64,000 nt of DNA, from contig NZ_WAHS01000001.1 in the NCBI RefSeq assembly GCF_015714715.1, positions 806,001 through 870,000 of the forward strand, read 5' to 3'. Numbering within the stretch: position 1 is the stretch's first letter; every line of letters starts with the position of its first letter. The notes beneath the pieces are model-generated. The model had not been told where the DNA came from. It saw only the letters and a list, made by a program, of their open reading frames with translations, and did no database searches. The position numbers and the translations under genes are program-made. This DNA comes from Aestuariivirga litoralis. GTDB taxonomy: Bacteria > Pseudomonadota > Alphaproteobacteria > Rhizobiales > Aestuariivirgaceae. Positions 36,576-47,415 of this stretch are shown here, in pieces.

Positions 36576-37190
36576 TTAGGCAGGCGCGCCAAACTGCTTG
36601 AGGGCCAGCATCATTACGGCATGGGCTGCGCCCGGCCCGATATTGACAATCTTGTGCGGCACGTCGGCGCGAAAGCGCACCGCCTCGCCTGCCCGGCCGA
36701 TGCGGGTTTCGCCGCCGGTGGTGATTTCGAGTTCGCCGGTCACGATATAAAGATGCTCGATGGTGCCAGCAGGGTGCGGCGAGGATTCCAGCACGCCTTT
36801 TTCCTGGGCATGGAAATCATACCATTGGAATACATCAACGAGGCTCAAGGGTCCGACGATGGCGAGGCGGCACAGGCCGTCCTGGCTTTCCAGCATGGGA
36901 ATACCCGACTTGGTCTGGTGATCAATAAAGAGTGATTGCTGCTCGCCCCGCAGCACTTCATCCACCGTCGTATCGAGCGCGCGGGAGAGGCGCACAACGG
37001 TTGAAAGCGTGGGGTTGGTTTCGTTGCGCTCGATCTGCGAAATGATGGATTTGGCCACGCCGGATTGTTCGGAAAGTTCGCCCAGCGACATGTTGTAAGC
37101 CTTGCGCAAACGCTGGATGGTCTTGCCCAGATCGGCCCCTGCATCCTCTGTCGCAGTTGTGGAACTCTTGGGGTCGCGGCGGCTTGACAT
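36576..37190 (-). CDS. XRE-family regulator with C-terminal cupin domain (SutR-like)
   Basis: 204 residues: HTH-XRE domain (about 22-80; LRKAYNMSLGELSEQSGVAKSIISQIERNETNPTLSTV) and a cupin sensor (about 105-200; HPAGTIEHLYIVTGELEITTG, RFRADVPHKIVNIG). ATG 37190 is preferred to TTG 37205. E. coli SutR (YdcN), an XRE-cupin protein, regulates sulfur-use genes. Here the gene is divergent from the cysG-cysI-cysH operon, and the shared intergenic region holds an inverted repeat GTTCG-N6-CGAAC only 27 bases from this start, so self-regulation and control of cys genes are likely (inference). The ligand of the cupin pocket is unknown. Confidence 0.85.
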   Translation of the reverse strand: MSSRRDPKSSTTATEDAGADLGKTIQRLRKAYNMSLGELSEQSGVAKSIISQIERNETNPTLSTVVRLSRALDTTVDEVLRGEQQSLFIDHQTKSGIPMLESQDGLCRLAIVGPLSLVDVFQWYDFHAQEKGVLESSPHPAGTIEHLYIVTGELEITTGGETRIGRAGEAVRFRADVPHKIVNIGPGAAHAVMMLALKQFGAPA

Positions 37191-37216
37191 AGGCTGGTCC
37201 TTCAAATAGAACTGGC

Positions 37217-37232
37217 GTTCGGAATAACGAAC
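37217..37232. promoter_or_regulatory. Inverted-repeat operator between XRE-cupin gene and cys operon
   Basis: GTTCG (37217-37221), GAATAA, CGAAC (37228-37232). It shares 14 of 16 bases with the palindrome in front of the peroxiredoxin gene at 46709-46724. It is 27 bases upstream of the regulator ATG and about 108 bases upstream of cysG. A half site CGAAC occurs at 37324-37328 near the cysG ribosome-binding site. Confidence 0.65.
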
Positions 37233-37339
37233 AAACTGCCTTTACGCCCAAAAGATAGTCCAAATCCAGTGTTTTTTAAAGGAAAAGCTGGTGTTTGGTG
37301 AAAATGACGGCGGACCAGTAAAGCGAACGGAGCGCTCCC

Positions 37340-38293
37340 ATGCGATATTTCCCGCTGTTTTATGACCTCGAAAATGCCCGCATTGCCGTGATCGGCGGCG
37401 GCGAGGAAGCCTTGCGCAAAATCCGCCTGCTGCTGAAGACGCCGGCGCAGATTGAAGTGATTGCCGATGATCTTCACCCGGAATTGAACGCCAATCCGCG
37501 CGTGATGTGGAAGGCGAAAACCTATCAGGCGAAGCATCTGGATGGGGTGAAGCTGGTGTTCTCTTCCGTGCCGGAATGGAATGCGCAGGTTTCCGCCGAT
37601 GCGATGGCGCGCGGCATTCCGGTCAATGCGGTGGATGATGCCGCACTCTCTTCTTTCCTGGTGCCCTCCATTGTAGATCGCGACCCGGTGGTGATTGCCA
37701 TTGGAACTGAAGGTGCTGCACCCGTGTTGGCGCAGGCCTTGCGGTCGAAGATCGACGCATTCGTTCCTAGCCAATTGGGTGCTGTGGCACGCCGGGCTTC
37801 GGCTTTGCGGACCTTGGTTGCCGAGAAGATTGAGGCTGGTAAACGCCGCCGTAGCTTTTGGGCGGACTTCTTCTTTGGTTCGGTGGCGGATGCTCTGAAG
37901 GACAAGGATGAAGTGGCTTATGAACTGGCCGTGGGGGATGCACTGTTTCATCACGCGCATAGCAGCAAGGGCCGCCTGACCATCATTAGCGCTCCTGCCG
38001 ATATTGATGAACTGACGCTGAAAGCGCAGCGCCGCCTGATGGAAGCCGATGTGATCGGTCGGGTGGGCGATGTTGCCCCTGCCCTGATTGAAATGGCACG
38101 GCGTGATGCTGTACGCATTGATGGCACTGAAAACCTGCTTGATGAAGTGAAGCGCGGCCAGTTGGTGGTCGTTCTCGGCAATGCCACTGCGCTGAAAGCC
38201 AAAGCGGAGGCTGAAGGCGTTGTTGTTGAGACGGTTGCACCCGCACATGCGGCTGACCATATCTATCCTGAATTTGAGAAAGCAGCATCATGA
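37340..38293 (+). CDS. cysG: Siroheme synthase, CysG N-terminal type with truncated methylase remnant
   Basis: 317 residues. The N-terminal part (about 1-205) is the precorrin-2 dehydrogenase/sirohydrochlorin ferrochelatase module: NAD-binding IAVIGGGEEALRK, NAVDDAALSSFLVPSIVDR, then the dimer helix LRTLVAEKI. The C-terminal part (about 214-262, RLTIISAPADIDELTLKAQR and DVAPALIEMARRDA) matches only the first section of the uroporphyrinogen-III methylase domain, where active enzymes read V-G-A-G-P-G-D-P-x-L-L-T-L; the rest is missing. It therefore probably does the last two siroheme steps but not methylation, which must come from another gene. First gene of the operon supplying siroheme to CysI; overlaps the next gene by four bases. 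Confidence 0.85.
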   Translation: MRYFPLFYDLENARIAVIGGGEEALRKIRLLLKTPAQIEVIADDLHPELNANPRVMWKAKTYQAKHLDGVKLVFSSVPEWNAQVSADAMARGIPVNAVDDAALSSFLVPSIVDRDPVVIAIGTEGAAPVLAQALRSKIDAFVPSQLGAVARRASALRTLVAEKIEAGKRRRSFWADFFFGSVADALKDKDEVAYELAVGDALFHHAHSSKGRLTIISAPADIDELTLKAQRRLMEADVIGRVGDVAPALIEMARRDAVRIDGTENLLDEVKRGQLVVVLGNATALKAKAEAEGVVVETVAPAHAADHIYPEFEKAAS

Positions 38294-38628
38294 GTGCGGA
38301 AGAAAAGGGCCAGGTGATGACGGCCAATCGTTTGGGCGACGGCATTGCCGTGTTCCTGCAACGCAATGGCAGCTGGAGCGAGAAGATTGACGATGCAGTG
38401 CTGGCGCTGGAGCCCGAAGCTACGGCAGCCCTTGAGGCGCGCGCGCTTGCGGACGTGAAGGCCAATGTGGTCACGGGGCAGTATTTCTTCGCCGCAACGC
38501 GCATTAACGGCAAAATCCGGGCAACTGACAATCGCGAGCGTATTCGCACTTTGGGCCCCACGGTTCGGCTCGATCTGGGCAAACAGGCAGAAGGCACCGC
38601 CGGTGCGTTTCTGCTGGATGAGGTTTAA
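38290..38628 (+). CDS. DUF2849 protein of the sulfite reductase operon
   Basis: 112 residues, soluble. The pattern VMTANRLGDGIAVFLQRNGSW at the N terminus and RERIRTLGPTVRLDLG near the C terminus matches DUF2849, a small family found almost only between cysG and cysI in Hyphomicrobiales. Coupled to cysG by an ATGA overlap and three bases before cysI. Role unknown; by position it may assist assembly or regulation of the siroheme sulfite reductase. Confidence 0.8.
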   Translation: MSAEEKGQVMTANRLGDGIAVFLQRNGSWSEKIDDAVLALEPEATAALEARALADVKANVVTGQYFFAATRINGKIRATDNRERIRTLGPTVRLDLGKQAEGTAGAFLLDEV

Positions 38629-38631
38629 GCC

Positions 38632-40287
38632 ATGTATCGTTATGATGAGTTTGATGCCAAGTTTGTGAGCGAGCGCACCGCGCAGTTCCGTGACCAGGCC
38701 AACCGCCGCCTGTCTGGCGCATTGACGGAAGATGAGTTTCGCCCGCTGCGTTTGATGAACGGGCTTTATCTGCAGCTGCACGCTTACATGCTGCGCGTGG
38801 CCATTCCCTACGGTACGCTTTCTGGCAAGCAGATGCGCAAGCTGGGCGACATTGCCGACAAGTGGGACAAGGGCTACGGCCATTTCACCACACGCCAGAA
38901 CATCCAATATAACTGGATCAAGCTGGAAGACACCGCCGACATTCTGCAGGCTTTGGCCGATGTGGAAATGCATGCCATTCAAACATCCGGCAATTGCATT
39001 CGTAACGTGACTACCGATCATTGGGCTGGTGCTGCCGCTGATGAACTGGCTGATCCGCGCCCGATTGGTGAATTGATCCGCCAATGGTCATCGCTGCATC
39101 CGGAATTCTCCTACCTGCCGCGCAAGTTCAAGATCGCCATTACCGGTGCGCCGCATGACCGCGCCGCCGTGAAGGTGCATGACATCGGCTTGCGATTACA
39201 CAAGAATGCAGCTGGCCAGCATGGCTGGGAAGTGATGGTTGGCGGTGGCCAGGGCCGCACGCCGATGATCGCTGTAACTGTGCGCGAACATCTGCCTGAG
39301 AATGAATTGATCGCCTATCTGGAAGCGATCATGCGCGTCTATAATCTCTATGGTCGCCGCGACAACAAGTACAAGGCACGCATCAAGATCCTGGTGCATG
39401 AAATCGGTGCCGAGAAATTCCGCGCCGAGGTTGAGGCCGAATATGCCAAGCATCCGGCGCAACAGACGCAGGTTGAAGAAGCCGAACTCGCCCGCATCAC
39501 CAAATATTTCGCTGTGCCGGCTTTTGAAAGGCTGTCGCGCTTTGCGCCGCATTACGAAGATGCACGCCGCGCTGATCTAGAATTTGCTGGCTGGGCCCGC
39601 AATAATCTGGCGGCCCATGCGCGCGATGGCTACACTATCGTCAACATTTCACTCAAGCCTGAAGGTGGCATCCCCGGCGATGCCACGGGCGATCAGATGC
39701 GCGTGATGGCGGATCTGGCCGAGCGTTTTTCCTTCGATGAGCTGCGCGTCAGCCATGCCCAGAACATCGTGCTTCCGCATGTGAAGCTGGAAGATGCCTA
39801 TACGATCTGGAAAGAACTGAAGACGCATGATCTCGCCGCCGCCAATTATGGGCTGGCTGGTGACATCATCGCCTGCCCCGGCCTTGATTATTGTGCGCTT
39901 GCCACGGCCCGTTCGATCCCTGTGTCGCAGGCGATCAGCCGCAAATTCGGCGATCTGGCCAAGCAGGAAGATTACGGCCCGCTGAAGATCAATATTTCCG
40001 GATGTATCAATGCTTGCGGCCACCACCATGTGGGCCATATCGGCATCCTGGGCCTCGATAAAAAAGGCGAGGAATATTACCAGATCACGCTGGGTGGCTC
40101 GTCATCCGAGAACGCGTCGATCGGTACAATTCTGGGGCCGGGCTTTGCCGCCCATGAGGTGCCCGATGCAATCGAAACCATTCTCAATACCTATGTGAAA
40201 CTGCGCGACAGGGGCGAGGATTTCCTCAGTGCCTATCGCCGCGTGGGGCCCAAGCCCTTCAAGGAGGCGCTCTATGCCACTGCTTAA
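38632..40287 (+). CDS. cysI: Sulfite reductase hemoprotein (nitrite/sulfite reductase family)
   Basis: Six-electron reduction of sulfite to sulfide in assimilation. 551 residues with two ferredoxin-like half repeats and siroheme/4Fe-4S ligands Cys415, Cys421, Cys458 and Cys462 (CPGLDYC and SGCINAC). Conserved active-site segments include TTRQNIQYNWIKLED (residues 86-100) and NCIRNVTTDH (121-130). It lies between DUF2849 and DUF934 genes and before cysH, so the substrate is sulfite rather than nitrite. It probably takes electrons from ferredoxin, since no cysJ flavoprotein is in the operon. The 3' end overlaps the next gene by 14 bases. Confidence 0.94.
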   Translation: MYRYDEFDAKFVSERTAQFRDQANRRLSGALTEDEFRPLRLMNGLYLQLHAYMLRVAIPYGTLSGKQMRKLGDIADKWDKGYGHFTTRQNIQYNWIKLEDTADILQALADVEMHAIQTSGNCIRNVTTDHWAGAAADELADPRPIGELIRQWSSLHPEFSYLPRKFKIAITGAPHDRAAVKVHDIGLRLHKNAAGQHGWEVMVGGGQGRTPMIAVTVREHLPENELIAYLEAIMRVYNLYGRRDNKYKARIKILVHEIGAEKFRAEVEAEYAKHPAQQTQVEEAELARITKYFAVPAFERLSRFAPHYEDARRADLEFAGWARNNLAAHARDGYTIVNISLKPEGGIPGDATGDQMRVMADLAERFSFDELRVSHAQNIVLPHVKLEDAYTIWKELKTHDLAAANYGLAGDIIACPGLDYCALATARSIPVSQAISRKFGDLAKQEDYGPLKINISGCINACGHHHVGHIGILGLDKKGEEYYQITLGGSSSENASIGTILGPGFAAHEVPDAIETILNTYVKLRDRGEDFLSAYRRVGPKPFKEALYATA

Positions 40288-40804
40288 GAACAGTCAGTTC
40301 GTTGATGACGATTACATCACTGTTGGAGATGAAGACGCGCTGCCGCAAGCCGGCCGCGTGTTGGTCAGCTTTCCGCGTTTGAAGAAGGAATGGGACGAGA
40401 TTGCCAAGCTCCCCGCGATGGTGGGTGTGCGTCTGGCCAATACCGACAAAGTCGAAGAACTCACGCCTTATCTTTCGAAGATTGCGCTGGTGGTGTTGAG
40501 CTTCCCGGCCTTCACTGACGGTCGCAGCTATTCGATTGCGCGCGGGCTGCGGCTTGACGGCTATCGTGGCGAGTTGCGCGCCGAAGGCAATGTGCTGCCG
40601 GACCAGCTGCAATATATGCGGCAGATCGGTTTCGATTCATTTTTGGTGACTGACCGTTTCCCGCTCGAAGTCTGGCAGGCCGCGGCACACCAGATGTCGC
40701 TTGCCTATCAGCGCGGGCTGTTCCGTCAGGTACAAGAAACTGAAGTGTGGTCCATCCGCCATCAGGGTTTTGAGGCTTGGGAGGAACAGCCTCATGCTGG
40801 CTAG
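40274..40804 (+). CDS. DUF934 protein of the sulfite reductase operon
   Basis: 176 residues. ATG 40274 (MPLLKNSQFVDDDYITVGDEDALP) matches the DUF934 start; the long frame to 40229 overlaps cysI too far. The signature FPAFTDGRSYSIARGLRLDGYRGELRAEGNVLPDQLQYMRQIGFDSF is diagnostic for DUF934, a family linked to cysI and cysH. There are no cofactor cysteines. Function unproven; it is thought to aid sulfite reduction. Overlaps cysI by 14 and cysH by 11 bases. Confidence 0.88.
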   Translation: MPLLKNSQFVDDDYITVGDEDALPQAGRVLVSFPRLKKEWDEIAKLPAMVGVRLANTDKVEELTPYLSKIALVVLSFPAFTDGRSYSIARGLRLDGYRGELRAEGNVLPDQLQYMRQIGFDSFLVTDRFPLEVWQAAAHQMSLAYQRGLFRQVQETEVWSIRHQGFEAWEEQPHAG

Positions 40805-41561
40805 AAATCCTCAACCACAACCGATCAACCAGAACGAAGTTCTCGAAGCCTATGCGGGCTTGGAAGGACGCGATCTGATCCGTGCCTTCGCGCGTGACTT
40901 TGAAGGCCGTATCGCGCTCCTGTCATCGTTCGGTGCTGAATCCTCCGTGCTGTTGCACATGCTGTCGGAAGTTGATCCCAGCATTCCGGTGATCTTTCTC
41001 GATACGCTGAAGCTGTTTCCGGAAACCATTGCATACCGTGACCGGCTCACGCGTGAACTGGGCCTGCGCGATGTTCGCGTGTTCCAACCGAATGTGGCTG
41101 ATCTGGAACGTGACGATCCGGCGGGTACGCTGCATCTCAGCAGTCCGGACCGGTGCTGCCATATCCGCAAGACCTTGCCGATGGAAAAGGCTTTCCGCGG
41201 TTTTGATGTGATGATTTCCGGCCGCAAGCGCTTCCATGGCGCGGCGCGTTCTGACCTGAAGCCGATCTCATTCGATGACCAGCGCATCAAACTGGAACCG
41301 CTGGCCTCGTTCACTTCGCTCGATCTGCATAATTACAAGGTTATGCGGCAATTGCCGTCACATCCGCTAAATCTGGAAGGCTATCATTCGATCGGCTGTG
41401 CGCCGACCACCTGCACCACCAAGGGCGGCAGCGCGGATAATCCGCGTGCCGGCCGCTGGATGGGGCAAGAGAAGACCGAATGCGGCATTCACTTTTCGGC
41501 CAATGGCAAGATCATCCGCATGGAAGCGCGAGGATCTGCCGCTGATCTGGTGAACGCATGA
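40794..41561 (+). CDS. cysH: Assimilatory adenylyl-sulfate (APS) reductase
   Basis: Reduces adenylyl sulfate to sulfite using thioredoxin or glutaredoxin. 255 residues from ATG 40794. The nucleotide loop is SSFGAESSVLLHML (44-57). The cysteine pairs Cys121-Cys122 (CCHIRK) and Cys202/Cys207 (CAPTTC) bind a 4Fe-4S cluster, which marks APS reductase rather than the PAPS-using E. coli CysH. Catalytic Cys230 lies in KTECGIHF. The operon thus uses APS directly; cysDN sulfurylase is not in the window. Overlaps DUF934 and DUF2061 genes. Confidence 0.94.
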   Translation: MLARNPQPQPINQNEVLEAYAGLEGRDLIRAFARDFEGRIALLSSFGAESSVLLHMLSEVDPSIPVIFLDTLKLFPETIAYRDRLTRELGLRDVRVFQPNVADLERDDPAGTLHLSSPDRCCHIRKTLPMEKAFRGFDVMISGRKRFHGAARSDLKPISFDDQRIKLEPLASFTSLDLHNYKVMRQLPSHPLNLEGYHSIGCAPTTCTTKGGSADNPRAGRWMGQEKTECGIHFSANGKIIRMEARGSAADLVNA

Positions 41562-41821
41562 GCGAGACTTCGCCGAGCGGCGCCGCAGAGAAACACATCA
41601 GTTCAAATTCCAATCCACGCCGGTCATTCGCCAAAGCGGTGAGCTGGCGCATCATCGGTTCGCTCGATACGGCCTTCTGGGGCTGGCTTTTCACCGGGTC
41701 GTTCAAGATCGCAGGATCGATCGCTACGTTCGAAGTGGTGACCAAGATTGTGTTGTATTATTTCCACGAACGCGCTTGGTCTTTTAGTCGCTTTGGCTTG
41801 CGCGATTTAAAGAAAGCATAA
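41558..41821 (+). CDS. DUF2061 small membrane protein
   Basis: 87 residues. After a polar N terminus, SWRIIGSLDTAFWGWLFTG and a second hydrophobic segment with KIVLYYFHERAWSF form the typical two-helix DUF2061 protein. It overlaps cysH by four bases (ATGA) and is the last gene of the operon. A role in sulfate or sulfite transport is only suggested by context. Converges on the PPOX gene with a ten-base gap. Confidence 0.82.
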   Translation: MSETSPSGAAEKHISSNSNPRRSFAKAVSWRIIGSLDTAFWGWLFTGSFKIAGSIATFEVVTKIVLYYFHERAWSFSRFGLRDLKKA

Positions 41822-41831
41822 GCCGACTTGA

Positions 41832-42338
41832 TTAAAGCCGCGTCTTGGCGTTGTCGCCCATATCCGGCTTTGCTCCGGTCAAGGCTGCTGCAATCATTTT
41901 GGTCATCGCCACCAACTTGCTGGGGCTATCCCATAGCTCGCCTTCAGTGGGAGAAACCGTGATCACGCGGATGCTGGGATCGGTCTCGTCGTCCCACCAA
42001 GCTTTGTCGGTTTTCTCCCACAGGTCAGCGATCAGGTCGCGGTCATTTTTGACTGACGCGCGGCCGGTGATGGTGACATATTTGTAGGCAGAGTTATCCG
42101 CCCAAGCCAGCGTGACAATAGGGTTCTGATCGATTTGGGCATTCTTGGCGCCCTCCTCATCCACTAGAAAGTGGATTACATGTTCTTCTCGGAAAACACG
42201 AGCAGAGAGGGGCCGTGCGCGTGGCTGTTTCCCATCCCAAGTGGTAAACATGCAGATGTCAATTTTTTCAGCGAGTTCCCATATCCGGTCGGTCACTTCC
42301 TGCGGGCTCAGATCACTCTTTTGCTGGTCCTTGCTCAT
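41832..42338 (-). CDS. Pyridoxamine-5'-phosphate-oxidase-like flavin protein (general stress type)
   Basis: 168 residues of the split-barrel FMN-binding superfamily, general stress protein 26 group. Visible blocks are IDICMFTTWDGKQPRARPLSA, HFLVDEEGAKNAQIDQNP and a C-terminal WWDDETDPSIRVITVSPTEGELWDSPS typical of this group. Probably binds FMN or F420-like cofactor; substrate unknown. Monocistronic; the upstream gap to metZ (42339-42444) contains its promoter but no clear motif was found. Confidence 0.85.
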   Translation of the reverse strand: MSKDQQKSDLSPQEVTDRIWELAEKIDICMFTTWDGKQPRARPLSARVFREEHVIHFLVDEEGAKNAQIDQNPIVTLAWADNSAYKYVTITGRASVKNDRDLIADLWEKTDKAWWDDETDPSIRVITVSPTEGELWDSPSKLVAMTKMIAAALTGAKPDMGDNAKTRL

Positions 42339-42444
42339 GGTGCACTCCTTGTTGCTTGAACAAGTGGAACATCGGAACCGGGGCGAAGTTCCCTAAAAAA
42401 CGTGCAGCAACATTGGAGGACCCTGTGCGCCCTCCCTCTTATTT

Positions 42445-43656
42445 TTAGCTGTTGACTGCCATTGCCTGCTTCAAGTCAGCCAACAGGTCACTTGCATCTT
42501 CCAGGCCCACCGATAAGCGCAGGCAGCCATCACTGATGCCCATCAGCGCGCGCGCTTCCGGTCCAATATTCTTGTGCGTCGTGGTGGCCGGATGGGTGAT
42601 CAGGGATTTTGAATCGCCCAGATTGTTGGAGATATCAATGATCCTCAGCCTGCGGAGCAAATTGAAAGCGCCTTCCTTGCCGCCCTTCACATCAAAGGAC
42701 ACCATGGTGCCGCCCAGCTTCATCTGCTTCTTGGCCAGGCGCACCTGCGGGTGCGTGTCGTGATGCGGATAATAGACCCGCTCGATGCTGGGCATGCCGT
42801 CCAGGCTGTTGGCCAGATATTCCGCCGAATGGCTGGAGGCGTTGACGCGCAGCTTCATCGTTTCCAGGCCCTTGAGCAGCACCCAGGCGTTGAAGGGCGA
42901 GAGCGTGGGGCCGGTGTGGCGCAGGAAGGGCTTCAACAGCTCTTCCTTGAATTTGGCGGTGGACAGGATCATCCCGCCGAACACCCTGCCCTGCCCATCG
43001 GTGTGCTTGGTGTTGGAATAGAATACGATATCCGCACCCAGCTCCATCGGCTTCTGCAGCAGCGGCGTGGCGAAGACATTGTCGATCACCACCTGCGCAC
43101 CGGCCTTGTGGGCGATGTCGCTGATGGCTTCAATGTCCAGCACTTCGAGCAGTGGGTTCGATGGCGTTTCGAAAAACAGGATTTTGGTTTCTGGCCGGAT
43201 CGCGGCTTTCCACGCACTCAAGTCATTGCCATCGACCAGCGTGGCGGTGATGCCGAAGCGTGGCAAGATTACCGTAAGGATCTGGTAGTTCGAGCCGAAC
43301 AGCGATTTCGACGCGACAATGTGATCGCCGGATTTCAGCTGGCAGGCCAGTGAACCCCAGCAGGCGGCCATGCCTGAGGCTACGGCATAGGCGGCTTCTG
43401 CCCCTTCCAGCATGCGGAAGCGTTCCTCCAGCATGGTGACGGTGGGGTTGCCATAGCGGCCATAGACATAGCCTTCCTCTTCGCCGCTGAAACGGCGCTC
43501 GGCGGATTCCGGATCGTCATAGACATAACCAGAGGTGAGATAGAGCGCCTCGGCGGTTTCGCCGAATTCGGAACGGGTCAGGCCGCCGCGGATCAACTTG
43601 GTTGAGTCACCCCAGCCGGTCGGGTCTTGCGTCTTGGTGTATTTGCCTTTTTTCAT
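42445..43656 (-). CDS. metZ: O-succinylhomoserine sulfhydrylase
   Basis: PLP enzyme joining sulfide to O-succinylhomoserine to give homocysteine, the step that uses sulfide from the cys operon next door. 403 residues. The PLP lysine lies in YSNTKHTDGQGRVFGG; YGRYGNPTV and PSNPLLEVLDI are family hallmarks. I start at ATG 43656 (MKKGKYTKTQD); the longer frame to 43893 runs into the rhodanese gene. Four bases separate it from that gene, so both are co-transcribed. MetZ and the related MetY or MetB are close relatives; motif and neighbourhood favour MetZ. No SAM-II riboswitch was seen upstream. Confidence 0.88.
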   Translation of the reverse strand: MKKGKYTKTQDPTGWGDSTKLIRGGLTRSEFGETAEALYLTSGYVYDDPESAERRFSGEEEGYVYGRYGNPTVTMLEERFRMLEGAEAAYAVASGMAACWGSLACQLKSGDHIVASKSLFGSNYQILTVILPRFGITATLVDGNDLSAWKAAIRPETKILFFETPSNPLLEVLDIEAISDIAHKAGAQVVIDNVFATPLLQKPMELGADIVFYSNTKHTDGQGRVFGGMILSTAKFKEELLKPFLRHTGPTLSPFNAWVLLKGLETMKLRVNASSHSAEYLANSLDGMPSIERVYYPHHDTHPQVRLAKKQMKLGGTMVSFDVKGGKEGAFNLLRRLRIIDISNNLGDSKSLITHPATTTHKNIGPEARALMGISDGCLRLSVGLEDASDLLADLKQAMAVNS

Positions 43657-43660
43657 GATC

Positions 43661-44062
43661 TCAGCTTTGCACCCAGGGAAGACCTGCGGCCTTCCAGCCA
43701 TTGACGCGGGCCCGGTGGCCGTCCGCGTCCTTGTCGCCCTCGAAGCCTTGCGACACGTTCCAGGCATTGGTGAAACCCGCTTGCGCAAGCGCAGTGGCAG
43801 CCGAGGCGGAGCGCGCGCCAGAGCGGCAAATGCAGAACACTTCGGCATCGGGCGGCAGGCCGAGTGCGCGCACCTCTTCGACAAAGCGGGCATTCACATC
43901 CATGGTTGGGTAAACCTGCCATGACAGGCGCACCAGACGGTCCACCTGCGGTACGCCCACAAAGGTCCATTCCGGCTGGGTGCGCACGTCGATGAGCACG
44001 GCGGCGGGATTGGCCTTGAGGCGTTGGTGGGCTTCGGGTGGAGGCAAATCGCCTTTATACAT
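43661..44062 (-). CDS. Rhodanese-domain protein
   Basis: 133 residues, single rhodanese domain. The active-site loop is CRSGARSASAA with catalytic Cys in FCICRSGARS, and the N-terminal AVLIDVRTQPEW is typical. ATG 44062 (MYKGDLPPPEAHQRL) is preferred; the longer frame to 44194 has no family support. It lies four bases upstream of metZ, so it may deliver persulfide sulfur for homocysteine or detoxify sulfide (inference). A hairpin with TTGTCG...CGACAA arms precedes it. Confidence 0.85.
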   Translation of the reverse strand: MYKGDLPPPEAHQRLKANPAAVLIDVRTQPEWTFVGVPQVDRLVRLSWQVYPTMDVNARFVEEVRALGLPPDAEVFCICRSGARSASAATALAQAGFTNAWNVSQGFEGDKDADGHRARVNGWKAAGLPWVQS

Positions 44063-44208
44063 TTGTCGGTCCTTGTCGTTTGTGTCGTCATACAACACCC
44101 GACAAAACCTACAAAGGGGAAAGCTGATTGGACCAGCAGGTGAGACAGTCTGGCTATGATCGTAACGCGCATCAGTGTTAGATTGCCTGATCAAGCAAAG
44201 GATTGGTT

Positions 44209-46665
44209 ATGGCGCAGGAATTTCCGAAACAGGCAGATGTGGTGATTGTCGGGGGCGGCATCGTGGGCTGCTCGATCGCGTACCACCTGACCAAGATTGG
44301 TATCACCAATGTGGTGGTTCTGGAGCGCAAGCAATTGACCTCCGGCACGACATGGCATGCGGCTGGTCTGGTCGGGCAGCTGCGCGCCTCGCGCAACCTG
44401 ACGGAATTGGCCAAATACACGACCAGCCTTTTTGAGGGACTGGAAAAGGAAACCGGACAGGCCACCGGCTTCAAGCAGAATGGCTCAATCTCGTTGGCTT
44501 TGTCTGATGGCCGCTACGAGGAACTGCTGCGCGGCGCTTCGATGGCCAAGAATTTTGGCCTTGCCGTGGATGTGCTGCCGCTGGGTGAATTGAAAGAGCG
44601 CATTCCGCATTACAATTTCGAGGGCGTCAAAGGTGGCGTGTTCCTGCCCAAGGATGGCCAGGTCAACCCGATCGACGTGACGCAGGCTCTTGCGGCCGGT
44701 GCGCGCTCGCGCGGCGCCAAAGTGTTCGAGAACACCAAGGTGACCCGCATTCTGACCAAGGATGGCAGGGCCACTGGCGTGGAGACCACACAGGGCACGA
44801 TCACCGCCGACAAGGTGGTGGTGGCATCCGGCATGTGGAGCCGTGAATTGGGCCGAAGCGTGGGCGTGAACATTCCGCTCCATGCCTGCGAGCATTTCTA
44901 CATCGTGTCCGAGCCCATCGAGAAGCTGCCGCGCAACATGCCGGTGGTGCGCGTGCCCGATGAATGCACTTACTACAAGGAAGATGCCGGCAAGCTGATG
45001 GTTGGTGCCTTCGAACCCAAGGCCAAGCCATGGGGTGGTGGCGGCATTGATGACGAGCATGCCTTCGTCACCCTGCCGGAAGACATGGATCATTTCGAGC
45101 CGATCCTGACCAGTGCCATTGCACGCGTGCCGCTACTGGAAACGGCGGGCATTCAATTGTTCTTCAACGGGCCGGAAAGTTTCACGCCTGATGTGCGCTA
45201 TTATCTGGGCGAAGCACCCGAGCTGAAGGACCTGTTTATGGCCACCGGCTTCAATTCCATCGGCATTCAATCGTCCGGCGGTGCGGGGCTGGTGCTGGCC
45301 GATTGGATCAAGAATGGCCATTCACCGATGGATGTGAACGGCATGGATATTCGCCGCATTCATTCGTTCCAGTCCAACAAGGCCTATGTGCGCGACCGCG
45401 TCACCGAAAGCCTTGGGCTTCTCTATGCGATGCATTGGCCCTACCGTCAGGCCGAAACGGCGCGCGGGGTGCGGCGTTCGCCATTTTATCAGTACACGGA
45501 GAAACTGGGCGCGGTGTTCGGCGAAGTGAATGGCTGGGAACGGCCCAATTGGTACGCCCTGCCCGGCATGAAGAAGGAATATGAATACTCCTATGGCCGG
45601 CAGAATTGGTTCCCTGCCGCACAGGCCGAGGCTGATGCGCTGAAGAATGACGTGGTGTTCTTCGACCAGTCTTCATTTGCAAAGTATGAAGTGGCGGGCC
45701 GCGATGCCTGTAAGGTGCTGAACCGGATTTCATCCAACAATGTGGATGTGGAGCCCGGCAAGCTCGTTTACACCCAATGGCTGAATGAACGCGGCGGCAT
45801 CGAGGCTGACTTGACGGTGACTCGCTTGGCCGAAGATCGCTTCCTCGTCGTCACCGGTGCCGTACCGCAGACGCGCGACATGGCCTGGCTCAAGAAGCAC
45901 ACGCCTGCCGATGCGCATTGCGTGGCCGTGGATGTGACATCCGGCCTGCCGATGCTTTCGATCATGGGGCTAAAGTCTCGCGCCTTGCTGGAGAAGCTTT
46001 CGGGCGCTGATCTCTCCAATGCAGCTTTCCCGTTCGGCACCTCGCAGGAACTGGAAATCGGTTACGCCCGCGTGCGGGCTTCGCGCATCACTTATGTCGG
46101 TGAATTGGGTTGGGAGCTTTACATCCCTGCTGAGTTTGCTGCGCATGTGATAGAAACTGTTTTGGCGGCGGGTGCGGAGTTCAAGCTCAAGCCCGCCGGC
46201 ATGCATACGATGAACAATGCCCGCATGGAAAAGGCTTATCGCCATTGGGGCCATGACATTGCGGATGAAGATACGCCGCTGGAAGCGGGTCTGGGCTTTG
46301 CCTGCGCCTGGGACAAGCCCGGCGGGTTTATCGGCAAGGACGCCCTACTCCCGCATCGCGGCAAGGGGTTCCCCAAGCGCATGGTGGCGCTGGCGCTGGA
46401 AGACACATCTGCCGACGCGCCGATGATTTATCACGAGGAACCGGTATACCGGGACGGCGTTATCGTTGGGTCCACCACGTCGGGCGCTTTCGGGCATCGT
46501 ATGGGCCTGTCTCTTGGATTGGCCTATGTGAAAAACGAAGGCGGCGTGACAGCGGAATGGATCAATGCGGGGACGTGGGAAGTGGAGCTGGCCTGGAAGA
46601 AATACCCGGCAAAAGTGCAATTGCAGAGCTTCTATGACCCAAAGAGTGAGCGGATAAAGGCTTGA
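44209..46665 (+). CDS. FAD-dependent dimethylglycine/sarcosine dehydrogenase-like protein with GcvT domain
   Basis: 818 residues. N-terminal FAD oxidoreductase domain with GGGIVGCSIAYHLTK (Rossmann) and LTSGTTWHAAGLVG, where the histidine corresponds to the residue that covalently attaches FAD in dimethylglycine dehydrogenase. A linker domain follows (about 370-430), then the GcvT folate-binding domain (about 440-700) and GcvT C-terminal domain (to 818). Such enzymes oxidise dimethylglycine, sarcosine or similar N-methyl compounds and pass the one-carbon unit to tetrahydrofolate. The exact substrate is unknown. Monocistronic; divergent from the rhodanese-metZ operon. ATG 44209 chosen over TTG 44203. 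Confidence 0.86.
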   Translation: MAQEFPKQADVVIVGGGIVGCSIAYHLTKIGITNVVVLERKQLTSGTTWHAAGLVGQLRASRNLTELAKYTTSLFEGLEKETGQATGFKQNGSISLALSDGRYEELLRGASMAKNFGLAVDVLPLGELKERIPHYNFEGVKGGVFLPKDGQVNPIDVTQALAAGARSRGAKVFENTKVTRILTKDGRATGVETTQGTITADKVVVASGMWSRELGRSVGVNIPLHACEHFYIVSEPIEKLPRNMPVVRVPDECTYYKEDAGKLMVGAFEPKAKPWGGGGIDDEHAFVTLPEDMDHFEPILTSAIARVPLLETAGIQLFFNGPESFTPDVRYYLGEAPELKDLFMATGFNSIGIQSSGGAGLVLADWIKNGHSPMDVNGMDIRRIHSFQSNKAYVRDRVTESLGLLYAMHWPYRQAETARGVRRSPFYQYTEKLGAVFGEVNGWERPNWYALPGMKKEYEYSYGRQNWFPAAQAEADALKNDVVFFDQSSFAKYEVAGRDACKVLNRISSNNVDVEPGKLVYTQWLNERGGIEADLTVTRLAEDRFLVVTGAVPQTRDMAWLKKHTPADAHCVAVDVTSGLPMLSIMGLKSRALLEKLSGADLSNAAFPFGTSQELEIGYARVRASRITYVGELGWELYIPAEFAAHVIETVLAAGAEFKLKPAGMHTMNNARMEKAYRHWGHDIADEDTPLEAGLGFACAWDKPGGFIGKDALLPHRGKGFPKRMVALALEDTSADAPMIYHEEPVYRDGVIVGSTTSGAFGHRMGLSLGLAYVKNEGGVTAEWINAGTWEVELAWKKYPAKVQLQSFYDPKSERIKA

Positions 46666-46707
46666 AATAAAAATCTTATGGGTCATGCACATTGGTGCAC
46701 TTGACAT

Positions 46708-46725
46708 TGTTCGTTATAACGAACA
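46708..46725. promoter_or_regulatory. 18-bp palindromic operator in the peroxiredoxin promoter
   Basis: TGTTCGTTATAACGAACA, a perfect palindrome (46708-46725), starts two bases after the -35 TTGACA (46701-46706) and fills the spacer to the likely -10. Its core GTTCG-N6-CGAAC equals the site at 37217-37232. A further CGAAC half site is at 46740-46744, before the AGGAGA ribosome-binding site. A small IR (TGCAC-ATTG-GTGCA) is at 46686-46699. Confidence 0.65.
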
Positions 46726-46758: not shown

Positions 46759-47415
46759 ATGGCATTGCAACTTGGCGATATTGCTCCGGATTTCGAGGCT
46801 GACACGACCGAAGGCCGTATCCGATTCCACGATTACATTGATGGTTCTTGGGCCCTTTTGGTGTCGCACCCCAAGGATTTCACCCCGGTTTGCACCACTG
46901 AACTCGGTGCCATGGCGAAGAAGAAGCCGGAATTCGATAAGCGCGGCGTCAAACTCATCGGCATCTCGGTCGACAGCGTGGATGACCATTTGCGTTGGAA
47001 AAGCGACATCAAGGATGTGGCGGGCGCAGAAGTGACCTATCCGATGATCGGCGACAGCGATCTCAGCGTGGCCAAGCTTTACGGCTTGATCCATCCGAAC
47101 GCATCAGGCGATGCCAAGGGCCGCACAGCGGCGGACAATGCCACGGTGCGCACGGTGTTCGTGATCGGACCGGACAAGCGCATTAAGCTGCTCCTCACCT
47201 ATCCGATGAGCACGGGCCGTAATTTTGATGAGATCCTGCGCGTGATTGACTCGTTGCAGCTCACCGCCACCAAGTCGGTGGCGACACCGGCCGATTGGAA
47301 GAAGGGCGATGACGCGATCATCCTCGGCTCGGTTTCGGATGAAGCCGCCAAGGAGAAATTCCCGCAAGGCTGGAAATCCGTGAAGCCCTATCTGCGCACC
47401 GTGCGCCTCGACTAA
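46759..47415 (+). CDS. 1-Cys peroxiredoxin (Prx6 group)
   Basis: 218 residues reducing peroxides. The peroxidatic Cys45 is in FTPVCTTEL; it is the only cysteine in the protein, so the resolving thiol must come from another molecule. Residues typical of Prx6 are SHPKDFTPVCTTELG, GISVDSVDDHLRWK and the C-terminal extension TPADWKKGDDAIILGSVSDEAAKEKFPQGWKSVKPYLR. It is followed by a strong terminator. Its promoter contains a perfect palindrome shared with the cys-operon regulator region, so expression is probably tied to sulfur or redox status (inference). Confidence 0.93.
   Translation: MALQLGDIAPDFEADTTEGRIRFHDYIDGSWALLVSHPKDFTPVCTTELGAMAKKKPEFDKRGVKLIGISVDSVDDHLRWKSDIKDVAGAEVTYPMIGDSDLSVAKLYGLIHPNASGDAKGRTAADNATVRTVFVIGPDKRIKLLLTYPMSTGRNFDEILRVIDSLQLTATKSVATPADWKKGDDAIILGSVSDEAAKEKFPQGWKSVKPYLRTVRLD

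Follow-up and report, generated by a model that had tools for sequence, protein, structure and literature searches.

Gene content and palindromes of the XRE-cupin/cysG locus

The window, i.e., the whole 64-kb stretch of DNA that was analyzed, contains an XRE-cupin regulator gene divergent from a run of sulfate reduction genes, followed by metZ and the gene of a 1-Cys type peroxiredoxin (Prx) (Table 1). Domain search identified the regulator adjoining the cys operon as an XRE-cupin protein, with an N-terminal HTH_3 domain (2.2e-14) and a C-terminal Cupin_2 domain (4.9e-11), and not as a LysR protein of the CysB type. CysB, as well as MetJ, MetR, SahR, SamR, and SAM riboswitches, which serve methionine control in Proteobacteria, have similar target genes but belong to unrelated regulator families. 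No Rfam match for a SAM/SAH riboswitch was obtained within the window at gathering score.

Table 1. Genes and predicted regulatory elements of the locus (positions in the window)
Feature	Position	Strand	Remark
XRE-cupin regulator, SutR-like, HTH_3 + Cupin_2, 204 aa	36576..37190	-	proposed operator-binding protein
Likely cysG-operon promoter, TTGACA-N17-TAGAAC	37184..37212	+	from conservation
Possible weak second operator O2, GTCCTTCAAATAGAAC	37197..37212	.	20 bp from O1, over cysG -10
Predicted operator O1, GTTCGGAATAACGAAC	37217..37232	.	between divergent XRE-cupin and cysG genes
cysG N-terminal type (NAD-binding/siroheme synthase dimerization region)	37340..38293	+	
DUF2849 protein	38290..38628	+	
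Nitrite/sulfite reductase family hemoprotein, cysI role	38632..40287	+	
DUF934 protein	40229..40804	+	ORF coordinates; real start probably later
cysH, phosphoadenylyl-sulfate reductase family	40701..41561	+	ORF coordinates; real start probably later
metZ, O-succinylhomoserine sulfhydrylase	42445..43893	-	ORF coordinates
Predicted peroxiredoxin operator, GTTCGTTATAACGAAC	46709..46724	.	34 bp 5' of ATG
1-Cys type peroxiredoxin, AhpC-TSA + 1-cysPrx_C	46759..47415	+	

The window contains exactly two matches to the pattern GTTCG-N6-CGAAC (0.07 expected; 0 of 100 shuffles reached two). These are the two palindromes singled out by the initial annotation: the pattern search returned them at the same positions, a recount agreed that they have 14 of 16 bases in common, and both, described there as lying in promoter regions, are noncoding and 5' of genes. 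The peroxiredoxin site sits within an 18-bp perfect palindrome, TGTTCGTTATAACGAACA, and probably covers the -35 region.

A generic sigma-70 scan came back without a promoter for the upstream region of either cysG or the peroxiredoxin. The cysG promoter was missed because the rule of the scan requires the second hexamer to have T as its sixth base, and it was proposed from conservation in place of the scan. TTGACAT is present in 30/30 genus loci at a fixed spacing to O1 and overlaps the XRE-cupin ATG. O1 begins 4 bp past the -10 element of this likely promoter, a distance constant in all 30 cysG loci, and its placement would correspond to the geometry of a repressor. O2 is suggestive only, since its GAAC doubles as part of the -10 element; across the 30 loci, its outer GTCC is found in 20 and its inner GAAC in 24.

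Distribution of the palindrome in the genome and the genus

In the whole 3.33-Mb genome, the loose pattern GTTCG-N6-CGAAC has 4 matches, versus 20 for the backwards control, and raw motif abundance was therefore rejected as evidence. Allowing one mismatch gave no excess across the genome either (10 matches versus 18 in the control). The AT-centered form GTTCKNWWWWNMGAAC has 4 matches versus 0 in the control. The initial annotation had asked whether matches cluster upstream of sulfur and redox genes, and all four AT-centered sites do lie there, upstream of the XRE-cupin/cysG-cysI-cysH genes, the peroxiredoxin, a sulfate-binding protein (sbp), and a ferredoxin-reductase-type gene. Frequent occurrence inside coding regions, which the same annotation took as speaking against an operator, is not seen for the AT-centered sites (0/4 in ORFs, all in promoter regions), whereas two of the four loose matches, with non-AT centers, do lie within ORFs.

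The 37 genus genomes contain 140 AT-centered sites, compared with 32 for the backwards control. They divide into 33 XRE/cysG, 32 Prx, and 75 other sites, and 63 of the latter lie at five further target classes, while one (L084) was read as a contig end bearing the Prx promoter again, with a DMGDH-type gene upstream, and one (L069) as a metK site. In this way 130 of the 140 were placed, at XRE/cysG, Prx, the sulfate-binding protein, a ferredoxin-reductase-type gene, fdxA, a ferredoxin-reductase operon, rhodanese-metZ, and metK. The ten sites without an assigned target (L070, L073, L074, L087, L096, L102, L237, L241, L246, and L263) were excluded from matrix training. A different palindrome, GTTCGGATTTCCGAAC, precedes a Rieske protein (L096, L246, and L263 in the genus and L286 outside it) and was excluded from the regulon. 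The relatedness of the genomes makes these counts interdependent and the Fisher values too optimistic.

Of 3,840 inverted repeats in the upstream regions fetched, GTTC-N8-GAAC is the top-ranking one, being present in 30/30 for XRE/cysG and 27/30 for Prx, which bears out the conservation upstream of orthologous genes that the initial annotation had asked for. Across genomes, the presence of the site follows that of the regulator gene, and the three site-free genomes are also without a regulator orthologue and cysI. In the genus, the predicted regulon would extend beyond the genes first annotated to sulfate uptake, ferredoxins, ferredoxin reductases, and metZ.

The position of the sites bears on the sign of control. 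Besides O1, the operator lies 11 to 14 bp ahead of the start codon at fdxA (16/16) and rhodanese (7/7) genes, within ~30 bp of it at 10/15 fpr genes, and ~20 bp ahead of the ferredoxin gene of the fnr2 operon. In sister species, the rhodanese-metZ promoter has the operator. The window's own genome gave none at rhodanese-metZ or fdxA in a matrix search and contains no close match to fnr2 (best, 27%). The sbp operator is placed differently, 5' of a conserved -35-like element, which is odd for a simple repressor. This is the position of an activator, and E. coli SutR is named a dual regulator in RefSeq; a protein that binds these sites mainly to activate sulfur genes, with a CysB-like logic, nevertheless appears unlikely given the start-proximal operators listed above and the one placed just past the likely cysG -10 element in every locus.

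The Prx sites of the genus are located 34 to 52 bp 5' of the gene and mostly have a Prx-typical form, GTTCTTTATTCCGAAC or GTTCTTTATTACGAAC, which is retained although the flanking DNA has diverged. In two genomes (G036 and G004), the Prx site is on a contig different from that of the cys locus, in keeping with action in trans. Among the 34 genus genomes that have a Prx gene, 3 (G001, G002, and G011) are without the site there, and two further genomes (G042 and G056) have the regulator and no site at Prx, as would be expected if only the cys/XRE site mattered and the Prx site were a functionless copy, whether by chance or as a relic. That reading is very improbable, since 27 of the 30 Prx regions keep the site, mostly in its own form amid diverged flanks, and one genome (G022) bears it at both of its Prx matches. 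Moreover, in the outgroup, where a close orthologue of the regulator is absent, 0 of 11 Prx genes have the site upstream, versus 32 of the 37 genomes with such an orthologue.

Homologues of the regulator and likeness to E. coli SutR

The initial annotation placed the regulator in the family of E. coli SutR (YdcN), whose name refers to sulfur utilization, and this holds. The two proteins share the HTH plus cupin architecture and 30% identity (52/176 aligned) covering both domains, with a common ES-PH-G-EH stretch in the cupin. The E. coli sutR-ydcO gap contains two 16-bp palindromes, GTGCGTTATAGCGTAC and GTCCGTTATAACGCAC, with the core CGTTATARCG in the same 16-bp frame; these are candidate SutR sites, and the pattern used to search for them was written after they had been seen. 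The outer bases of the half-sites differ, being GTGC and GTCC at sutR and GTTC here. With respect to targets, the regulator described here is tied to the core sulfate reduction operon, sulfate uptake, ferredoxin/ferredoxin reductase, and peroxiredoxin.

Among proteins of solved structure, an HTH_3 family regulator of Vibrio cholerae (PDB 1y9q) is the best match by sequence (E 4e-12, residues 21 to 184) and the first by fold, although identity in the fold alignment is only 21% and the overall superposition is poor (TM 0.44). We take this entry to contain a methionine-type ligand and zinc; if right, the ligand fits a sulfur amino acid as effector. In the structure model of the window regulator, the cupin part has high confidence, whereas the HTH part has a pLDDT of 50 to 68 in blocks of ten and was excluded from DNA docking because of this low confidence. 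H139, E145, and H179 are invariant in the 41 aligned sequences (of 49; L162, L180, L184, L194, L206, L208, L212, and L229 were left out after a stop turned up in L208) and could hold a metal.

Among 50 further regulator homologues (80 loci minus 30 from the genus or near it, still including the close relatives L184 to L187 and L189 to L193, of which L190 is labeled Aestuariivirga), GTTC-N8-GAAC is found upstream of 29, more than any other of the 3,840 inverted repeats. The AT-centered form occurs in 25, and any other AT-centered half-site in at most one. The repeat is again first for the homologues at most 62% identical (18/35), and 20/41 bear it at 65% or less. Two Azorhizobium genomes have a homologue of 56 to 57% identity and no strict site. 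In more distant relatives, sites are found at metX, metY-like, and metK genes.

Outside the genus, most sites are without an evident target. Five order-level genomes that have the regulator contain 17 sites in total, all fetched except G042:C10, and only 6 of the 17 lie at an evident sulfur target or at the regulator. The 19 order-level genomes without the regulator contain 16 sites, so background sites exist, and none of the 5 fetched (L284 to L288) is at a regulon gene. One of these (L284) has a different XRE gene with a similar palindrome, GTTCGGAATTCCGAAC, 20 bp upstream, and other XRE proteins may therefore read such sites.

Regulators of other families also use palindromes with this kind of shape, and the XRE-cupin gene, as any target would, has the site within its promoter region. 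Together with that different XRE gene, this is consistent with a reading by another factor (LysR, Rrf2, or IclR type or another XRE), the XRE-cupin gene being just one of its targets. We consider this improbable, because the site stays 5' of XRE-cupin genes in 29 of the 50 homologues while the gene surroundings change and because E. coli sutR is likewise preceded by similar palindromes. In addition, no second regulator gene was noticed recurring beside the sites, on informal inspection.

Proposed control of sulfur assimilation

As judged from the sequence comparisons described above, the palindrome is very probably the operator of the neighboring regulator, which is best read as an autoregulated sulfur repressor of the SutR type that would also control the peroxiredoxin. 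The comparisons support the shared operator and the role of the XRE-cupin protein as put forward in the initial annotation. A dimer of the protein would bind the operator, TGTTCGTTATAACGAACA, through the N-terminal HTH, and the most likely role of the C-terminal cupin is to sense a sulfur metabolite, our guess being a sulfur amino acid. When sulfur is plentiful, the protein would sit over the transcription start of cysG-DUF2849-cysI-DUF934-cysH and block RNA polymerase, and it would also cover its own promoter region. In the genus, ferredoxin, ferredoxin-reductase, and rhodanese-metZ genes would be blocked in the same manner, with the protein over their starts. When sulfur runs short, it would release the operator. 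The peroxiredoxin would be a further member of this regulon, its likely -35 region being covered by the operator. At sbp, the protein may activate or work with another factor, since the operator there is upstream of the likely -35 element.

The main text of a 2014 survey of methionine regulons in Proteobacteria, which included 15 Rhizobiales genomes, has no occurrence of XRE or cupin (PMC4239095). Our literature search, which lay largely outside subscription journals, found no paper on such control of sulfate assimilation in Alphaproteobacteria. The question lends itself to direct testing, since the regulator and the 16-bp operator are both defined and the list of targets is short.

The regulon predicts which ferredoxins and reductases would supply a ferredoxin-type sulfite reductase, and it would connect a thiol peroxidase with sulfur supply. 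In a broader proposal, to which we give an even chance, SutR-type XRE-cupins are a general family of sulfur metabolism repressors in Hyphomicrobiales that replaces control of the CysB/MetJ type. One type of operator would then serve targets that switch between lineages, from sulfate reduction, ferredoxin electron supply, and peroxiredoxin in Aestuariivirga to metX, metY-like, and metK genes in Beijerinckiaceae and relatives, and the common signal would be a sulfur amino acid bound in a metal cupin.

Two matching palindromes and the genes beside them

The palindrome GTTCG-N6-CGAAC occurs exactly twice in the window, against 0.07 copies expected and with none of 100 shuffles reaching two, and its copies are identical in 14 of 16 bases, as the initial annotation had correctly observed. 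Its gene names were likewise upheld by domain searches, which retrieved HTH_3 and Cupin_2 for the regulator, the cysG N-terminal family for CysG, a nitrite/sulfite-reductase-family hemoprotein in the CysI role, phosphoadenylyl-sulfate reductase for CysH, and AhpC-TSA with 1-cysPrx_C for the 1-Cys peroxiredoxin (Prx).

The 3,325,940-base genome contains four matches to this loose pattern, two of them inside open reading frames, versus 20 for the same pattern written backwards; raw abundance was dropped as an argument because the pattern is rarer than its control. The AT-centred (strict) form, GTTCKNWWWWNMGAAC, has four genome sites versus none in the backwards control, and all four lie upstream of sulfur or redox genes: XRE-cupin/cysG, Prx, a sulfate-binding protein gene (sbp), and a gene whose product, with FAD_binding_6 and NAD_binding_1 domains, can be read as a ferredoxin-NADP reductase (fpr). 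Allowing one mismatch gave no excess of the AT-centred pattern in the genome (10 matches versus 18 in the control).

Positions of the palindromes, neighboring genes, and likely promoter elements
Feature	Position	Strand	Context
XRE-cupin gene	36576-37190	minus	divergent from cysG
TTGACA, likely cysG promoter	37184-37189		followed by 17 bp
TAGAAC, likely cysG promoter	37207-37212		followed by TGGC, then the operator
Palindrome 1	37217-37232		between XRE-cupin gene and cysG
cysG	37340	plus	start
Palindrome 2	46709-46724		34 bp ahead of the Prx ATG
Prx ATG	46759		
AT-centred site, sbp	C1:1814192		upstream of sbp
AT-centred site, fpr-type gene	C2:88828		upstream of fpr-type gene

Conservation and targets within the genus

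Genus relatives were gathered by searching with XRE-cupin and Prx. All 30 retrieved XRE/cysG regions contain GTTC-N8-GAAC, as do 27 of 30 retrieved Prx regions, and in these regions it ranks first among 3,840 inverted-repeat patterns (256 half-sites by 15 gaps). The Prx sites have a characteristic form, mostly GTTCTTTATTCCGAAC, and the DNA flanking them differs widely.

The AT-centred pattern has 140 sites in the 37 genus genomes (backwards control, 32). By coordinates, 33 belong to XRE/cysG (33/34 genomes; the G030 site, GTTCTGCAAAACGAAC, falls outside the strict pattern) and 32 to Prx (31/34 genomes, twice in G022). The other 75 were all retrieved and their neighbors assigned by tblastn, which placed 63 upstream of five further target classes: the 7Fe-type ferredoxin gene fdxA (16), fpr (15), the pyridine-nucleotide-reductase gene fnr2 (13), sbp (12), and rhodanese-metZ (7). 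The short gene between the operator and fnr2 reads as a putative [2Fe-2S] ferredoxin. One site at a contig end (L084) appears to be the Prx promoter repeated, and another, in G018, lies ahead of DUF3293-metK and is immediately followed by a SAM-I/IV riboswitch (L069, 1900-2016), an abutment that makes dual control by protein and RNA possible. In all, 130 of 140 sites are placed at a target, and 10 are unassigned. The logic of the predicted regulon is coherent, extending from taking up sulfate and reducing it to sulfide, through supplying a ferredoxin-type sulfite reductase with electrons, to incorporating the sulfide.

At seven loci (L021, L027-L031, and L034), the leading gene of the cysG operon, between XRE and cysG, reads as a [2Fe-2S] ferredoxin. 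A different palindrome, GTTCGGATTTCCGAAC, lies near position 2000 of loci from three genus genomes (L096, L246, and L263) and one outside (L286), ahead of genes encoding a Rieske protein and, by eye, a large arsenite-oxidase-like oxidoreductase; it probably belongs to another regulator.

Co-occurrence of the operator with the regulator

The three genus genomes that carry no site (G014, G015, and G035) are also the three that have no XRE-cupin orthologue (best matches, E of 1.9e-11 or weaker). A search for cysI in these genomes gave no match, an apparent loss of sulfate reduction, with G035 only 74% complete. A site upstream of Prx was found in 32 of 37 genomes with a close regulator orthologue (31/34 in the genus; present in G040, absent from G042 and G056) and in 0 of 11 genomes without one, among which the L115 stretch extends only 126 bp upstream and G045 encodes a homologue of the regulator at 35% identity. 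Fisher tests of this co-occurrence gave small values, computed as if the genomes were unrelated.

At order level, five genomes with a 50 to 60% orthologue have 17 sites (control, 6) and 19 genomes without one have 16 (control, 9). An evident target stands at 6 of the 17 (in G040, at Prx, rhodanese-metZ, and a sulfonate-binding protein gene; in G055 and G057, at metY-like genes; in G056, at XRE/cysG), and the remainder, from 16 of 17 sites retrieved, had no recognizable target. G046, which has no close orthologue of the window's regulator, carries GTTCGGAATTCCGAAC 20 bp ahead of a different XRE-type regulator gene (L284, 2007-2022); the same 16 bases occur in G049 (L285), with no such regulator gene listed there.

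From at least 80 named homologue loci, 30 were set aside as genus or near-genus members and 50 analyzed over the 400 bp preceding the gene, extended by 60 bp to allow for uncertain starts. Among the matches listed, GTTC-N8-GAAC lies upstream of 29/50 homologues and the AT-centred form upstream of 25/50, any other AT-centred half-site reaching at most 1; with the closest relatives removed, GTTC-N8-GAAC still ranks first (20/41 at ≤65% identity, 18/35 at ≤62%). The gene surroundings vary, including fnr2-cysG-DUF2849-cysI, rhodanese-metZ-XRE, and, in two records titled Gammaproteobacteria, cysG-cysI-DUF934-fdxA. Counting as a site an AT-centred match upstream or a strict match at any position of the locus, 23/28 listed homologues whose locus includes any of nine sulfur genes have one, versus 5/22 of those whose locus includes none of the nine. 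Eight of the more distant genomes were hand-picked, one of them (L223) with a known site at the regulator: six have 12 sites in all (control, 1), and no site was found in the two Azorhizobium genomes. Of the 12, eight are close to metK (L303, L306, L307), a metY-like O-acetylhomoserine sulfhydrylase gene (L308), metX (L309, L312, L313), or XRE (L310), and four are without a clear target; assignments come from family search (L306, L308, L309), tblastn (L310), or reading of the sequence, with some starts uncertain. Four loci (L187, L189, L190, and L191) carry three GTTC-N8-GAAC in a row upstream of XRE, 16 and 20 bp apart, which suggests cooperative binding.

SutR of Escherichia coli is 30% identical to the window's XRE-cupin across both domains, and the sutR-ydcO gap contains the palindromes GTGCGTTATAGCGTAC and GTCCGTTATAACGCAC. 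The corresponding pattern never occurs when a 20-kb stretch is shuffled 100 times, a post hoc figure, because the pattern was composed after the palindromes were seen. We regard similar palindromes upstream of this distant relative's own gene as the best independent hint that XRE-cupin reads the palindrome. A ChIP-exo study describes the YdcN motif as palindromic (PMC8464067).

Promoter geometry and predicted regulation

In 30 of 30 genus cysG loci, the spacing between TTGACAT and the operator is constant, and a TAGAAC-like −10 element follows TTGACAT. Since this likely −10 ends 4 bp ahead of the operator, the operator should cover the cysG start site. The operator precedes the start codon by 11 to 14 bp at fdxA (16/16), 11 bp at rhodanese-metZ (7/7), about 20 bp at the ferredoxin gene of the fnr2 operon (eight measured), and within about 30 bp at fpr in 10/15, the rest up to 100. 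Placement at these genes and at cysG is the geometry of a putative repressor; the Prx operator apparently overlaps the −35 region. At cysG, a second dimer may bind a half-conserved site 20 bp from the operator. At sbp, the operator is located upstream of a conserved stretch that resembles a promoter and includes an inverted repeat of its own; another factor may therefore act there. The inverted-repeat-like CTATACTA...TAGTATAG between operator and gene (for example, in L085, L103, L238, and L240) is a possible site for a second regulator.

The cupin part of the structure model is confident, 1y9q and 6b8w are the best relatives with a solved structure, and three residues (H139, E145, and H179) do not vary among 41 sequences; we infer the effector and the sign of regulation. 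The proposal that a SutR-like XRE-cupin links the cys operon with Prx gains support from comparative evidence well beyond the window. Rather than a new kind of system, the predicted regulon would be a new and well-defined one under a regulator of an already known type.
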